Virus record (IMG/VR): IMGVR_UViG_3300043438_000350
Location: 1-29,236 of that record
Length of the DNA stretch: 29,236 bases
From: a virus
Reading direction: 5' to 3' (one strand)
A model generated the notes under the pieces. That model did not search any database. It worked only from the letters and a program-made list of their open reading frames with translations, and was not told the DNA's origin. A program made the position numbers and the translations under genes. Of the stretch, positions 3,562-28,242 are shown piece by piece (the first letter of the stretch is position 1; every line of letters starts with the position of its first letter).

Positions 3562-5322
3562 CTAGTGCTGAGTCGCTGAGTCTGATTGGTCGTGGGTTAG
3601 GCTCACCCTTCTTCTGCCAGAATACAACCGCATTAAGATTCCCTTAACAAGAGTATCCATAACAGCGTCACGAACTACAATTTCATACTCGTCTGCTTGC
3701 TGAATATCTTCAAGCTCTTTGCTTCTGTCTGGAGTCTCCGCTGTGACGTACAGGAATCGTGCAAGGAATCCAGAGCGGAAGTACTCAGTTGTGAGAACAT
3801 CTGCAACCTTGCTAGTGATACCCATCAAGAACATCACGAAGTTAGTTGTGGCTCTTTCGGTCTGAGACTTGCCTTTGCCAGAACGAATTACAACAGGCAC
3901 GTGACCATCGTAAAGCTCAGTGAATCGCTCAGCTGCTGATGCCATGTAGGTCTTATTGATAAAGTCCTTGAACATACCCTGGACTTCATCTCTGTGCAGA
4001 AGGCTAGTCTTGCCGTCACGCTCTGCAAGGATTGAAGTCACACCTTCAGGGGTTGCATCGGAACCGATATCAATCTGGTAGCCAGAGTACTTCTCAAACT
4101 CACGAATCATTCGGAGCATTAGGTTTCGGCTGGTTGATTTACGAGTAAGTGTAGTCTCACCAAGCACCATGAACCACAGGTTCAATCCCATCTTGCCGTA
4201 CTTTGGGATAGCATAGCCAATGTCTGAGAAGGAGGAGGACAGCACAGTAAAAGCGCTCGCAATGTGATACTGGTAAGCAGCATCAGTCTTTGACTTAGCC
4301 CAGTCCATGTAGTCATCAATAAAAGTCCTACGAGAATCAACTACATACTGCTCATCGTCAGTTAGGAACTTTATGTCTTTTGGTTCTGCAGTGACAGTTT
4401 GCACCAGTGGCTCGACAGCTTGATATTGCTGAGCTGGCTCAGTTCGGTAAGATACGCTTGCCCTCTGCACCTCACGCCACAGGTCACCATCAGCGTCATT
4501 GCGTTTAGGTCTAAGTGGCGAGTGATACTTGTTGCACTTTGCATTGCGAGCAATTACAAAAACTTCTTCGGTTGTCAAGCCCTGCCTAAATAGTTCAAGC
4601 TCAAGCTTCCAAAGCAACACAGACATATCAGCATTAGGTGCTGGTTGCTCCATGTACAATCCGATAATTTCAGGATTGCTGTTAATCTTACCCATTGTCT
4701 GCATTAGGTCAGGCCACTGTGGTGGTAGCTCTTTCAATGATAGGTCTTTGATTGGCTCAACATCAACATCACCGTATTGCTCAGCCAGTTCCGCAAGAGA
4801 ATAGATTGAACCGTTAGAAGTAGCAGTGACTGGGTGGTCCTTGCCTTCTTTGCGGTTCATGGAGTTGGGCACACGCAATAGCTTAGTTGTATTCCAACCA
4901 GACCTATCGCAACCTTGGTGAGAGTGAGCATAGGCAATCTTCTTAGCAATCAGGGCTACATCCTGTGGGTCTGCCTCGCTATCGAGAATCCAGTAGGTGT
5001 GCCAGTGCCCTTCTGAAGTTTGCACAGAGATAGATGGCTCAACAAAAAAGTTTTCTGGCTCGCAGGAGTCTGCATCTGCGTAGACTACAGATACGGTCTT
5101 AGCATTTTCTTTGATGCGTCTCGGTGATGCAAACAGGATAGGCGAGAAATAAACGTCACCACTGGCATGAGTAGTTGCGTGTGCAACCATATCCTCTTTT
5201 TGCTGTGGGTAATCAAAGAACTTCTGGTCAGTCAGGTCATTGCTTACTGGGTGCCGTGTGACGATTGTTGCAATACCACGACCATCGCCGTATATCGCAT
5301 CGAAGAAATCACCTGTCTTAAT
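3562..5322 (-). CDS. Primase-polymerase / helicase, N-terminal and central parts
   Basis: About 586 aa from an apparent ATT start at 5320-5322. Residues about 80-111 carry the archaeo-eukaryotic primase signature (YADAD with two Asp, then SEGHWHTYW). Residues about 388-397 are a Walker A variant (GETTLTRKST) and about 440-446 a Walker B (SLLHRDE), so it combines primer synthesis with a P-loop helicase of the DUF3987 kind. The first ATG (5190) would remove coding sequence that looks genuine (GDFFDAIYGDG, IATIVTRHPVSND). No ATG, GTG or TTG is in frame upstream; ATT 5322 has GAGGAG six nt before it. After residue about 561 the frame leads to a nonsense tail, and the true continuation is the 3128-3643 frame. 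Expected to prime phage DNA replication. Confidence 0.82.
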   Translation of the reverse strand: MKTGDFFDAIYGDGRGIATIVTRHPVSNDLTDQKFFDYPQQKEDMVAHATTHASGDVYFSPILFASPRRIKENAKTVSVVYADADSCEPENFFVEPSISVQTSEGHWHTYWILDSEADPQDVALIAKKIAYAHSHQGCDRSGWNTTKLLRVPNSMNRKEGKDHPVTATSNGSIYSLAELAEQYGDVDVEPIKDLSLKELPPQWPDLMQTMGKINSNPEIIGLYMEQPAPNADMSVLLWKLELELFRQGLTTEEVFVIARNAKCNKYHSPLRPKRNDADGDLWREVQRASVSYRTEPAQQYQAVEPLVQTVTAEPKDIKFLTDDEQYVVDSRRTFIDDYMDWAKSKTDAAYQYHIASAFTVLSSSFSDIGYAIPKYGKMGLNLWFMVLGETTLTRKSTSRNLMLRMIREFEKYSGYQIDIGSDATPEGVTSILAERDGKTSLLHRDEVQGMFKDFINKTYMASAAERFTELYDGHVPVVIRSGKGKSQTERATTNFVMFLMGITSKVADVLTTEYFRSGFLARFLYVTAETPDRSKELEDIQQADEYEIVVRDAVMDTLVKGILMRLYSGRRRVSLTHDQSDSATQH

Positions 5323-5344
5323 AATAGTCTCCTCTAGTCTGCAT
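5318..5344 (-). promoter_or_regulatory. Primase leader: SD, upstream mini-ORF and ATT start
   Basis: GAGGAG (5329-5334) lies 6 nt before ATT 5320-5322. An 8-codon mini-ORF (ATG 5342-5344, MQTRGDYY, TAA 5318-5320) overlaps the ATT by one nt in another frame. TACAAT at 5354-5359 with TTCGAG 17 bp upstream (inside the T-loop of the tRNA-like element) is a weak candidate promoter. GAGGAG is complementary to CTCCTC in the loop of the tRNA-like element. Confidence 0.4.
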
Positions 5345-5359
5345 AAGTTTTAAATTGTA

Positions 5360-5430
5360 TGGTGCCCCTATCTGGACTCGAACCAGATACCCGACAAAGG
5401 AGGAGAGAAAACGAGTACACCTGTAGGGGC
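5360..5430 (-). ncRNA. tRNA-like element without a D-arm, 18-nt anticodon-position loop
   Basis: Read on the minus strand from 5430: a perfect 7-bp acceptor stem (GCCCCTA 5424-5430 with TAGGGGC 5364-5370), 7 unpaired nt, a 5-bp stem (ACTCG 5412-5416 with CGGGT 5389-5393, one G-T pair) closing an 18-nt loop (5394-5411), one variable nt, a canonical T-arm (TCTGG-TTCGAGT-CCAGA), discriminator A and encoded CCA. There is no D-stem and no 7-nt anticodon loop, so it is unlikely to decode. The plan recalls the tRNA-like domain of tmRNA. The loop includes CCTCCTTT, the same as the anti-Shine-Dalgarno end of 16S rRNA. It lies directly upstream of the primase-helicase. A decayed tRNA or attachment-site relic is the alternative. 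Confidence 0.6.
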
Positions 5431-5474
5431 TAATGTGCGTTGTTTACGAGACGCACCCCTCGCTTGCCCATTGC

Positions 5475-5945
5475 TTAGGCCCAGATGTCACCAGCTGGGA
5501 CTGCGCCCATTGCAGTGAGCAAAGACTCTGAGGTTGCCTTGTCGAAACCTGCTACCTCATTACGGTCTTCACCGTTCTGGTCTTTCCCCACCTTGACACG
5601 CACTCCAATTGCCTTGCCCTGAAGTTCGTTAAGGTCTGGTACTTCAAAGTCTCCCGACTTCATGTCGTAGCCAAGTGAAGAGAAGAAGCTCTGTGTCTTC
5701 CAGAAGTCACCTGCTACATAAAGTGGAATGTAAGAGAATACTCTACGGTTCTCGTACTGCCCACTTGAAATTCTGAACTGAACATTGAAGCGTGGCTTGC
5801 CTTCGTTTGGTCCAGAGCGAACCTCTTCCTGCTTTACCTCAAACACAGTTGCGTTGTAGGACCCAGCAGGAATTGCTGACATTGGCCCACTAGATGGTCC
5901 ACTTGATAGTGAACTTTCTGTGATACCTGTAATTTTAATTGACAT
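5475..5945 (-). CDS. DUF669-family protein, likely ssDNA-binding
   Basis: 156 aa. The N-terminus is Ser/Gly/Pro-rich, followed by AGSYNATVFEVKQEEV and a beta-strand-rich core with RFNVQFRI and NRRVFSYIPL, typical of DUF669 phage proteins usually encoded beside Sak-type recombinases and thought to bind single-stranded DNA. ATG 5945 shares TAATG with the stop of the Sak4-like ATPase, so the two are translationally coupled. The gene ends 45 nt before the tRNA-like element. Confidence 0.75.
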   Translation of the reverse strand: MSIKITGITESSLSSGPSSGPMSAIPAGSYNATVFEVKQEEVRSGPNEGKPRFNVQFRISSGQYENRRVFSYIPLYVAGDFWKTQSFFSSLGYDMKSGDFEVPDLNELQGKAIGVRVKVGKDQNGEDRNEVAGFDKATSESLLTAMGAVPAGDIWA

Positions 5946-6754: not shown

Positions 6755-7456
6755 CTAGATTCCTATATTGCATTTAAAGCACTCTGGGTTTGACGGGTAG
6801 TTGTCTGGGTGAGCTCCACTCTGAAGTTCATCCCACAGCCTAATCAGTCTATTCCAAAGAGCCACAGCAAATGACTCATCATACTCGTAAGTGTGAGTCC
6901 AGATGTCGTTCTCATAAGTGCCCTCACGATTGATGAATACCAAACTGATGCTGTCAACCTTGATGTTTGTTTGGTTCATTCCCCAAGCGTAAAGCTGGGT
7001 CTGACCAATGTACTTCTTAAGAGTATACTCAGCCCCACTGTCATGCTTCACACCATCCACCAAGTCCTTCAGCTTCTTGACCTTAGTTCTTGAGCTGGTC
7101 TTCCAGTCAATCAAGTGCTTATGAGTTGGTAATACAAGGTCAGGTTTACTACTGATAGAACCGTACCCACTAACATTACCCAGACTAATCTTCTGTTCAA
7201 CGAGAGCATTGTCGAAAAGACCAGTGCTGTCAGTAGAAATAGCAGACTCAAGAAAACTGTGAATGGCTGTCCCAATCTTTGCTCCCATCCAATACTTTTG
7301 TTGTGGCTCTGGCTCTGCAAGCAGTGCCTTAGCTAAATGTTTTGTGCAAGGGTCTGATATTTGAGATGCACCCACCTTGCGTTGCTTATCTCTATCAGAC
7401 TCCTGTTTAAATAGCCCGACTGTCATAGCCATGACCTCTGTGTTAGTCAAGCCCAT
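6755..7456 (-). CDS. Cas4/RecB-like PD-(D/E)XK exonuclease
   Basis: 233 aa. The nuclease core is visible as GTAIHSFLE (about 62-70), SKPDLVLPTHKHLIDWKTSS (about 107-126, with the Asp and D-x-K catalytic residues) and the QTQLYAWG helix (about 151-158, QxxxY). Cys-36 (DPC) and a C-terminal CFKC could hold part of a Cas4/AddB-type iron-sulphur cluster, but I count only three of the usual four cysteines. Expected to resect DNA ends for the Sak4/DUF669 pair. ATG 7456 has AAGGAGGAG upstream and overlaps the WhiB gene by 14 nt. Confidence 0.82.
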   Translation of the reverse strand: MGLTNTEVMAMTVGLFKQESDRDKQRKVGASQISDPCTKHLAKALLAEPEPQQKYWMGAKIGTAIHSFLESAISTDSTGLFDNALVEQKISLGNVSGYGSISSKPDLVLPTHKHLIDWKTSSRTKVKKLKDLVDGVKHDSGAEYTLKKYIGQTQLYAWGMNQTNIKVDSISLVFINREGTYENDIWTHTYEYDESFAVALWNRLIRLWDELQSGAHPDNYPSNPECFKCNIGI

Positions 7457-7967
7457 ACTTCATCTCCTCCTTAGTAAAGTTGATTCCACCCCAGACACCC
7501 CACTCTTGCTTGCTTTCGACTGCAAAGTCGTAGCACTGCTTTAGTAGTGGACAGCCAAAGCAAATCTTCTCAGCTAAATCTTCTGATACATACTCTGGCT
7601 CGTCAATGTACAAGCGTGGGTCTAACACGCAAGGCACAGTGTTTCCTGACACTTGAGCAAACGCTTCGGTCAAAGCATACCACGACTGCTGTGCTTTCTC
7701 AACTAGCAACACAGATTCTGGAATCTCAATTATCTGAGGCTTATCCTTCTTCGGTCTTGCTACTCCGCCGTTCTTGAGTTTGTTCCGCTGATACTTTTCT
7801 CTAGCGTATTGCTTGCGACACTCACGACATACCCTTGCATTATCATAGGCACGAATGAAAGTGTTCTCTTCTGTAAACTCATGCCCCTTAGAGCAATGGC
7901 TTCCTCGAACTCGCTTCTTGCCCCAAGGGTTATGCTTCTCAGCTTCTTCCCATTGGTAATCAGTCAT
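7443..7967 (-). CDS. WhiB-family regulator with N-terminal zinc domain
   Basis: 174 aa, longer than a typical WhiB (about 80-120). The C-terminal half is WhiB: C in TVPCVLDP, CFGC and C in LLKQCYDFA (four cluster ligands) and the EWGVWGG beta-turn. The N-terminal 60 residues form another domain, GSHCSKGHEF ... ARVCRECRKQYAREKYQR, a CxxGH...CxxC zinc motif often seen in phage HNH-type proteins, followed by a basic linker. WhiB proteins are confined to Actinobacteria and their phages and bind sigma factor region 4 to control transcription; phage copies can interfere with host septation or exclude other phages. Start shares TAATG with the upstream stop. Confidence 0.88.
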   Translation of the reverse strand: MTDYQWEEAEKHNPWGKKRVRGSHCSKGHEFTEENTFIRAYDNARVCRECRKQYAREKYQRNKLKNGGVARPKKDKPQIIEIPESVLLVEKAQQSWYALTEAFAQVSGNTVPCVLDPRLYIDEPEYVSEDLAEKICFGCPLLKQCYDFAVESKQEWGVWGGINFTKEEMKYGLD

Positions 7968-26917: not shown

Positions 26918-27022
26918 ATGATGTACCTCCTTTCATCGTGTGTGTGTTGCGAGAACCGCCCTGTTGAGCTAGACTCCAGGGCGGTTTTCCCTACAATGAC
27001 TGATAGAATAGAGCTAGTATGA
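26918..27022 (+). CDS. Possible leaderless Cys-rich leader peptide (34 aa)
   Basis: ATG 26918 lies 8 nt after TGATAGAAT (26901-26909), so the message would be nearly leaderless. MMYLLSSCVCCENRPVELDS then RAVFPTMTDRIELV, stop TGA overlapping the next start (ATGA). The terminator at 26954-26990 is inside the ORF, downstream of the CVCC codons, an arrangement resembling transcription attenuation. Could be chance. Confidence 0.4.
   Translation: MMYLLSSCVCCENRPVELDSRAVFPTMTDRIELV
26954..26990 (+). terminator. Rho-independent terminator or attenuator
   Basis: AACCGCCCTG (26954-26963) pairs perfectly with CAGGGCGGTT (26977-26986), loop 13 nt, short T tract ending TTCC. Lies between nrdH and the fibre gene. 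Confidence 0.8.
27002..27018 (+). promoter_or_regulatory. -10 element giving near-leaderless fibre mRNA
   Basis: TAGAAT (27004-27009) preceded by TGA, 9 nt before ATG 27019, so the leader would be a few nt. No Shine-Dalgarno sequence. The same TGATAGAATAG occurs at 26901-26911. Confidence 0.5.
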
Positions 27023-28242
27023 TTATCTGGCCTGACAGTAACTTACCCCCTCAATCCCAAGAATGGGCTGAAAAGGTTGAAGGGGAAATTGAGCGCATTG
27101 ACAAAAAACCATCTGGTGGTGGTGGCGATTCTGCTGCTGGCACTCCTGGACCACAAGGCCCAGCAGGTCCTCAGGGGCCGCAGGGCGAGCCTGGAGCCAC
27201 TGGAGCAACTGGAGCCAAGGGCGATAAGGGTGACCAAGGTGAACAGGGCATACAGGGCATACAGGGGCAGCAGGGCCTAAAGGGTGACACTGGACTAAAA
27301 GGTGACACTGGAAGCCAAGGTATTCAAGGAGTAAAAGGAGATACTGGAGATACTGGAGCAACAGGCGCAAAAGGAGATACTGGGGCCCAGGGCCCACAAG
27401 GTTTAAAGGGCGATACTGGCGACCAAGGAATCCAAGGCATACAAGGAATCCAAGGCGAGCAAGGAGCTCAAGGTGCACAAGGTGTTAAAGGCGATACTGG
27501 TAATACTGGACCGAAAGGGGATACGGGCGCTACAGGAGCAACGGGAGCTCAAGGTCAAAATGGTTTTTCGGCTTATCAAGTTGCTGTTATTGATGGATTC
27601 ATTGGTACGGAAGCGGAGTGGCTAGATAGCTTAGTCGGTCCCGAAGGTCCCACAGGCCCAACTGGACCACAAGGTGCTTCGGGTGATAGCTCAACACATT
27701 ATCACTACACTGCAAAAACTAACACAACAAGCGGAGACCCCTCACATCAGCATCTTGCTTGGAATAACGCAACCCAGATAAACTCCACTGCACTTCAGGT
27801 AAGCCACATAGATGCTGATAACCAAGATGACAGCATTTTTCTAGACCTAATTAATCAAAACGATGTTTTAATTATTCAAGACAAAACCAATGCTGCAAAT
27901 TATCAGAAGTGGGAAGTGTCAGGCACTCCAACTTACAACTCTACATGGAATCGGTTTCCTGTAACCCTTATTGAATCAGGGGGCACTGGGACAACTAACT
28001 TTGCAAATAACCACGCCGTGCTTTTGATTATTGTTTCTGTCGGAAACGTTGGGCCTCAGGGTCCCCAGGGAATCCAAGGGGTTAAGGGTGATACTGGAGC
28101 AACGGGTGCCACTGGTCCGAAGGGTGATAAAGGAGATAAAGGTGACGATGGTGCTGCTTATGGTAATATAGATGGTGGAAAGTCTAATAGCGTTTATGGC
28201 GGGATTAGTTCGATAATGGGCGGAAATGCGGTAATGGTCTAA
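27019..28242 (+). CDS. Collagen-like tail fibre protein
   Basis: 407 aa. N-terminal 34 residues precede a long Gly-X-Y block (about 42-176) that would form a collagen-type triple helix; a globular domain follows (FIGTEAEWLDSLVGP, then STHYHYTAK to about 340), then a second Gly-X-Y block (about 343-375) and a GGKSNSVYGGISSIMGG end. Typical of trimeric host-binding fibres of actinobacterial phages. The repeats (runs of GACACTGGA-like and CAAGG-like codons) invite length variation. Confidence 0.87.
   Translation: MIIWPDSNLPPQSQEWAEKVEGEIERIDKKPSGGGGDSAAGTPGPQGPAGPQGPQGEPGATGATGAKGDKGDQGEQGIQGIQGQQGLKGDTGLKGDTGSQGIQGVKGDTGDTGATGAKGDTGAQGPQGLKGDTGDQGIQGIQGIQGEQGAQGAQGVKGDTGNTGPKGDTGATGATGAQGQNGFSAYQVAVIDGFIGTEAEWLDSLVGPEGPTGPTGPQGASGDSSTHYHYTAKTNTTSGDPSHQHLAWNNATQINSTALQVSHIDADNQDDSIFLDLINQNDVLIIQDKTNAANYQKWEVSGTPTYNSTWNRFPVTLIESGGTGTTNFANNHAVLLIIVSVGNVGPQGPQGIQGVKGDTGATGATGPKGDKGDKGDDGAAYGNIDGGKSNSVYGGISSIMGGNAVMV

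Follow-up and report, generated by a model that had tools for sequence, protein, structure and literature searches.

A coding sequence (CDS)-less version of transfer-messenger RNA (tmRNA), consisting of the transfer RNA (tRNA)-like domain only, is known from mycobacteriophage DS6A (PMC4131195; PMC11915505), and the mascRNA and menRNA of MALAT1 and NEAT1 are cut from longer transcripts by RNase P and RNase Z, which in mascRNA recognise an elbow made of two conserved guanosines and the T-loop (PMC11693755). In the alpha-r14 or cuckoo RNAs of Alphaproteobacteria, CCUCCUCCC anti-Shine-Dalgarno (anti-SD) motifs are displayed in hairpin loops and target mRNA translation starts (PMC10746234), and in the T2/T4 gene 32 leader an H-type pseudoknot lies next to the phage SSB gene (PMC3014915). 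Here we describe a tRNA-like element (TLE) in the viral IMG/VR record IMGVR_UViG_3300043438_000350, the whole stretch of which, 29,236 nucleotides (nt) in length, is referred to below as the window. The TLE occupies positions 5360-5430 on the minus strand, at a fixed place flanked by the genes for a DUF669 (SSB-like) protein and a DUF3987 primase. It may unite tRNA-fold biogenesis with anti-SD antisense control, two principles that are not known to occur together; no description of a tRNA-like anti-SD phage RNA was found in the literature searched.

A D-arm-less tRNA-like element

An earlier note, made from the DNA letters of the window and giving no strand, had placed at 5360-5430 a tRNA-like element with a perfect 7-base-pair (bp) acceptor stem, a canonical T-arm with a TTCGAGT loop, an encoded CCA, a 5-bp stem in the anticodon position, no D-arm, and an 18-nt loop carrying an anti-SD sequence. 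The element is indeed present, read on the minus strand, and this description holds in all but one detail. The acceptor strands GCCCCTA (5424-5430) and TAGGGGC (5364-5370) form 7/7 pairs, the T-arm TCTGG-TTCGAGT-CCAGA (5371-5387) has 5/5 pairs and a canonical 7-nt T-loop, and the 3' end is an encoded ACCA (5363-5360). In place of a D-arm there is only the linker CAGGTG (5418-5423), of which the GG is nearly invariant. The stem in the anticodon position likewise exists, but it measures 6 bp, one of them a G.U, rather than 5 (5' strand TACTCG at 5412-5417, pairing with the 3' strand CGGGTA at 5393-5388). It closes the 18-nt loop TTTTCTCTCCTCCTTTGT (5411-5394), which has the anti-SD sequence inside it and contains CTCTCCTCCTTT. 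A covariance model built from relatives (R1) matches 5359-5430 with 62.9 bits.

The acceptor and canonical T-arm are those of a tRNA; however, the other hallmarks of a decoding tRNA are missing. No D-arm stem is found in the TLE, the gap between the acceptor and the middle stem being only about 5-11 nt in the window and its relatives, nor is there a 7-nt anticodon loop with an anticodon, this loop being 18 nt in the window and 10-25 nt in most relatives. ARAGORN reports no tRNA or tmRNA at the window TLE, and a tRNA model search of the whole window record recovers no tRNA. A tmRNA, inclusive of the CDS-less form, was also rejected: there is no Rfam tmRNA match in the window, for which model the element of Stenotrophomonas phage Jojan60 discussed below served as the positive control (61.8 bits), the total length of 71 nt leaves no room for a tag reading frame, and G3-U70 is absent. 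Position 3-70 is C-G in 68, U-A in 5 and G-U in 0 of the 73 family sequences introduced in the next section. Rfam 15 contains no family for the TLE, and an Rfam-wide search returned only a spurious long non-coding RNA match.

In single-sequence folding the cloverleaf is not the minimum free energy structure of the window copy, because the middle-stem sequence ACTCG is able to pair with CGAGT in the T-loop; the z-scores are only modest and were not used as evidence. The case for the TLE therefore rests on its relatives.

Covariation defines an RNA family

Relatives were IMG/VR loci retrieved with the DUF669 protein (57), an alignment (80) and a second-clade alignment (72), these sets being largely overlapping. 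Where the interval is complete, a TLE lies 3' of the DUF669 gene in essentially all loci, and each of 73 related loci gives one and only one match to the covariance model; one distant DUF669 relative (L287) yielded none. A further 15 contigs, 10 obtained via a DNA pattern scan and five via the second-clade scan, match the model at E <= 2e-7, nearly all of them outside the seed alignment, and the 10 from the pattern scan have the same two flanking genes. No prophage copy was confirmed in 84,980 bacterial and archaeal species, and direct DNA similarity to cultured phages was confined to generic tRNA T-arm matches.

RNAalifold, applied to 32 sequences, predicts 16 pairs with compensatory changes in 15. 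In the alignment of all 73 sequences, 95.9% of the cells are paired, 15/16 pairs are changed on both sides, and the covariation score reaches 0.880 as against 0.249 +/- 0.013 after shuffling and at most 0.167 for slid structures. The co-variation extends over all three helices: the acceptor is paired in 98.9% of the cells, with double compensatory changes in each of its first five pairs; the T-arm is paired in 96.5%; and in the middle stem (92% paired) all 5/5 modelled pairs co-vary. Sequence comparison thus indicates a signal far above chance and a structure kept under selection, in keeping with the earlier suggestion that such an acceptor match would rarely arise by chance beside a T-arm. 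This covariance search of relatives, which had been proposed as a check, gave compensatory changes in the acceptor and middle stems and a CUCC-type loop in nearly all copies. On these grounds the TLE represents a conserved, covariation-supported RNA family that is absent from Rfam 15.

The same evidence bears on the origin of the element by decay. A functionless tRNA relic, akin to the deletion relic that the earlier note had named as a refuting outcome, might be suspected from the missing D-arm, and one locus (L039) does carry an extra D-less tRNA-like element with a CAU anticodon. Against this, compensatory covariation is massive and maintains the TLE in about 88 loci, and the element is found in all complete syntenic intervals examined, so that decay is refuted by covariation and its probability is next to negligible. 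The remnant of an attP/tRNA integration site was also considered and rejected: the 5' acceptor strand and the middle stem co-vary, and the TLE is not a 3' tRNA half.

Across the family the acceptor is 6-7 nt long with at least 5 pairs, followed at a nearly constant distance by the linker NNGG (mostly CTGG or TTGG) without a D-stem. The middle stem (4-9 bp) abuts the T-stem, leaving almost no variable loop, and the loop it closes is mostly 10-25 nt. The T-loop is mostly TTCGATT, the discriminator mostly A and then C, and CCA is not generally encoded. The linker GG is likely the equivalent of G18-G19 of the D-loop; both its nearly fixed spacing and the T-loop are conserved, and a tertiary elbow contact between them is predicted. 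With its conserved acceptor, T-arm and GG linker, its lack of a D-stem, and relatives in which a standard anticodon arm is likewise missing here, the family has the features expected of a non-decoding tRNA mimic, as had been proposed.

The acceptor, T-arm and GG are also the best-conserved parts of the TLE, which would suit the role of a degenerate tRNA serving only as an RNase P/Z site that separates the SSB and primase mRNAs, with an incidental loop. The ordinary or aberrant tRNAs at the same locus in Amigovirus, and the loop-less versions in L018-L021 and Clavibacter phage CN1A, point in the same direction. However, compensatory change also maintains the middle stem, and the anti-SD is kept in nearly all loops and co-varies with the primase SD, which makes a pure processing signal decidedly improbable.

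The loop co-varies with the primase Shine-Dalgarno region

The primase/helicase gene (DUF3987) lies at 3562-5322 on the minus strand of the window, and its SD region GAGGAGA (5328-5334, minus) is complementary over 7 nt to TCTCCTC in the TLE loop. A CUCC-type anti-SD is kept in the loops of nearly all TLEs, most of which contain CUCC or CUCCUCC. The earlier note had likened the loop to the 3' end of 16S rRNA. This stands for many loops, which contain CCTCCTTT, the same as the 16S tail, whereas many others depart from the 16S sequence CCUCCUUU, and in these the primase SD region departs in step. For example, the loop has CTTCTTCTCC where the primase SD is GGAGAAGAAG (L041-L051 and L079), CCTCCTCCCTG where it is CAGGGAGGAGG (L078/L082), and CTCCTCTT where it is AAGAGGAG (L031); comparable pairs are TCCTTTCTC with GAGAAAGGA (L106), TTTATCTCTC with GAGAGATAAA (L063/L088/L105), and CCTGTTTG with CAAACAGG (L073/L074).

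Permutation places this correspondence on a quantitative footing. Over 65 distinct loop-leader pairs, the duplex energy with a phage's own primase leader is -16.3, as against -13.7 for permuted pairs, and 0/10,000 permutations are as good; the best partner within the phage is its own primase leader in 28 of the 65 phages, where 7.2 are expected. Taken gene by gene, the z-scores for energy and match length are -8.2 and +8.3 for the primase, -4.1 and +6.0 for AAA_24, and -4.0 and +3.5 for PDDEXK, with most other genes near 0. The adjacent DUF669 gene gives only -1.0 and +1.5, although its SD is about as strong as that of the primase. When each 90% cluster is represented by a single sequence and pairs are permuted only within either of the two major clades, the primase retains z-scores of -4.2 and +3.8, the DUF669 control takes the opposite sign, and the primase alone stays clear on both measures. 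When all 81 loops are used, including held-out ones, the values are -8.2 (energy) and +9.0 (match length), and about -3.7 and +4.1 after thinning at 90% and permuting within clades. These comparisons indicate that the TLE loop matches and evolves with the primase SD of the same phage and not with that of the adjacent DUF669 gene; to this extent, the idea of a loop aimed at SDs and acting on the next gene is borne out by specific co-variation.

Several observations weigh against this interpretation. In the window itself the loop-primase match covers only the 7 nt of GAGGAGA, and the own leader ranks 37 of 65. Nine held-out loci, the loops of which were pre-selected for CTCCTTT, show no significant preference for the own leader (p 0.31, 0.60), and seven further held-out loci gave a mixed result. 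For AAA_24 and PDDEXK the signals arise mostly between clades and largely vanish within them. In a few phages (the L033, L253 and L265 types) the TLE has no anti-SD loop. More generally, SDs and pyrimidine loops are of low complexity, and clade structure can inflate z-scores.

The occurrence of CCTCCTTT in so many loops, together with the matches of the window loop to the SDs of several phage genes (of the two upstream genes most clearly PDDEXK), raises the possibility of a general mimic of the 16S 3' end, which would titrate SDs or an initiation component broadly and thereby shut down protein synthesis of the host or give phage mRNAs an advantage. In that case the loops should not drift with the primase SD, as they do in L041 (CTTCTTCTCC), L031 (CTCCTCTT), L078 (CCTCCTCCCTG) and L106 (TCCTTTCTC), and the primase should not be singled out over a neighbouring DUF669 gene with an SD of about equal strength; a general mimic accordingly appears improbable.

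Action in cis or in trans

The distance between the TLE and the primase start is 15-45 nt in many phages, while in many others 100-1000 nt separate the two, often with true tRNA genes in between. The short spacing would suit a purely cis-acting leader switch, in which the TLE remains part of the mRNA and hides the SD of the next gene through a kissing contact with its loop, and no RNA acts in trans; release could perhaps come through RNase P/Z excision, the pseudoknot described below, or a bound protein such as the phage SSB. The co-variation is accordingly stronger for close TLE-primase pairs (z -6.4) than for distant ones (z -3.3), and in the L033 and L265 types the 3' end of the TLE is directly at the SD. 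Yet the signal persists beyond 100 nt, with own-leader complementarity retained across 100-1000 nt that often include true tRNAs needing excision, and the SD that best complements the window loop belongs to a gene lying some 2 kb upstream: the 10-nt match to AAGGAGGAGA (7463-7472, minus), the SD of the PDDEXK nuclease gene (6755-7456), is its longest in the window. A switch acting only in cis is hence rather unlikely as the full account. The retention of own-leader complementarity despite intervening tRNA genes instead suggests a processed RNA capable of acting in trans.

Separately, in L033, L253, L265 and L266 the 3' end of the TLE abuts the primase SD directly (e.g., GGGGCACAAGGAGGATAATG), an arrangement that suggests another way of controlling the same primase start.

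Proposed function

The structure, conservation, fixed position and loop-primase SD co-variation would fit a scheme in which the TLE is a non-decoding, tRNA-processed antisense riboregulator of the translation of phage replication genes, built on a tRNA scaffold; this is the explanation we favour, and we regard it as somewhat more likely than not. The segment comprising the pseudoknot and the TLE would be co-transcribed between the SSB-like and primase genes, and the acceptor, T-arm and GG linker would form a tRNA-like elbow. Host RNase P and RNase Z, with CCA addition, could then release the TLE from the polycistronic transcript as a stable species about 70 nt long. Such excision is plausible because two conserved guanosines and the T-loop constitute the elbow that these enzymes recognise in mascRNA. 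The oversized loop in the anticodon position would display an anti-SD fitted to the primase mRNA at its translation-initiation region, with a weaker fit to the AAA_24 and PDDEXK mRNAs that belong to the same operon. Pairing of this loop in the cell would block 30S binding, in cis before excision and in trans thereafter. In this manner expression of the replication genes would be coupled to transcription of the operon.

Occlusion of an SD usually results in repression, and we infer that the effect on translation is mostly of this kind; conceivably, the primase could instead be upregulated, which would count against the scheme. More tentatively, the TLE may typify a new class of trans-acting viral riboregulators, in which a former tRNA that lost its D-arm has converted its anticodon loop into an SD antisense probe, is made by the tRNA maturation machinery of the host, and governs how the phage replication operon is translated; a pseudoknot bound by the SSB would add a second layer of control.

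Each of these ingredients has precedents; what is new is the RNA family and the proposed combination of tRNA-fold biogenesis with anti-SD antisense control. If the scheme is correct, it shows how a regulatory RNA can evolve from a tRNA once the anticodon is replaced by an anti-SD, and the TLE would offer a natural blueprint for stable SD-targeting regulators.

Genomic neighbourhood

The DUF669 family gene (5475-5945, minus) lies upstream of the TLE, and the gene at the same position in Arthrobacter phage Molivia is annotated as SSB. Its stop codon is followed by a highly conserved H-type pseudoknot, [GCGAGG]G{GTGCG}[TCTCGT]AAACAA{CGCAC} (5435-5463, minus), which is separated from the TLE by 4 nt. 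Nearly all relatives have the same layout a few nt 5' of the TLE, with both stems changed yet pairing, e.g., [AGTC]C{TGAGACA}T[GACT]TAAAAC{TGTCTCA}, and by inspection the same pseudoknot is seen in Arthrobacter Amigovirus phages and in the Arthrobacter phages Anansi and Molivia.

The primase gene of the window begins with an apparent ATT start codon at 5322 (5320-5322, minus; GAGGAGACTATT ATT AAG ACA GGT), as does that of L001; in relatives these codons come after an ATG, GTG or TTG. Farther upstream, the protein encoded at 7443-7967 (minus) shows on inspection an arrangement of cysteines like that of WhiB, and the corresponding gene is annotated as WhiB in the Arthrobacter phages Anansi and Molivia. 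These annotations suggest an actinobacterial host, and the phages of the TLE lineage, which are uncultured, probably infect Actinobacteria. Elsewhere in the window, the structural gene region encodes a long protein with collagen-like G-X-Y repeats (27019-28242, plus).

Origin of the locus

Other phages carry a range of RNAs at this locus. In the Arthrobacter Amigovirus, tRNAs lie between the SSB and primase genes, and several of them have anticodon loops of 6 or 8 nt and escape assignment by ARAGORN; those recorded as 'tRNA-Gly(ccc)' and 'tRNA-OTHER' (L108:2575-2652, L110:2600-2753) have abnormal anticodon loops (ARAGORN: 'undetermined') and may likewise be tRNA-like RNAs with a regulatory role. 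The element of Clavibacter phage CN1A comprises acceptor, GG and T-arm but lacks an anticodon arm, and L018-L021 contain an anticodon-less element together with an anti-SD TLE. Tiny elements consisting of acceptor, GG and T-arm, without a D-arm or clear anticodon arm, are located at L018:5501-5554, L021:5463-5517 and L112:2922-2968. The extra element of L039 (5650-5715), 3' of the anti-SD TLE, has a normal-looking anticodon arm with the loop TTCATAA (CAU). In Stenotrophomonas phage Jojan60 (L114:2886-2968), an 83-nt CDS-less tmRNA sits directly 5' of the primase, scoring 61.8 bits against a gathering threshold of 47; the record carries no such annotation. From the tRNAs, the tmRNA and the reduced elements that other phages have here, we infer that the locus has long been rich in RNAs and that one of these, a tRNA or a tmRNA-like domain, probably gave rise to the TLE.

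A TLE-like element also occurs in an unrelated viral contig (L190:5967-6042), 3' of a recT-like gene; its loop with ACCTCCTTT was pre-selected by the search pattern, its acceptor GGGGCT/AGCTCC is tmRNA-like with G3-U70, and it has a weak Rfam mascRNA-menRNA score.

The TLE might explain the odd 'undetermined' tRNAs between the SSB and primase genes of actinophages, and the origin of the locus can be tested in cultured relatives that have a related version of it (Arthrobacter Amigovirus, Clavibacter CN1A, Stenotrophomonas Jojan60).

Comparison with known systems

The CDS-less tmRNA of DS6A resembles the TLE in being a small phage RNA with an acceptor, a T-arm, a GG linker without a regular D-stem, a stem in the anticodon position and no tag frame. 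Unlike it, the TLE has no tmRNA score, no G3-U70 (0/73) and no GGNUUCGACG motif, and its anti-SD loop co-varies with an mRNA of the phage. The pseudoknot next to the TLE is in turn reminiscent of the T-even gene 32 operator in being H-type and near an SSB-like gene, a likeness to be taken as a lead only: the T4 pseudoknot is upstream of the SSB gene and bound by gp32, whereas that of the TLE locus is downstream of the SSB-like gene and 5' of the TLE.

With the alpha-r14/cuckoo RNAs the TLE shares an unpaired loop complementary to SDs as the antisense effector, here a proposed one. Membership in that group was nonetheless rejected on account of the fold: the cuckoo RNAs comprise three simple hairpins without a tRNA fold and belong to bacterial rather than phage genes, and their motif is ultraconserved while the TLE loop is tuned to a particular neighbouring gene. 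The scaffold has a counterpart in mascRNA and menRNA (PMC11693755), with a reduced D region, a non-standard anticodon arm, and an elbow of two guanosines and T-loop that is predicted for the TLE. Those RNAs differ in being human and in lacking an anti-SD loop; processing, established for them, is for the TLE our expectation, and the TLE has no Rfam match. By analogy with both, the TLE would work like an anti-SD antisense RNA on a mascRNA-like scaffold.
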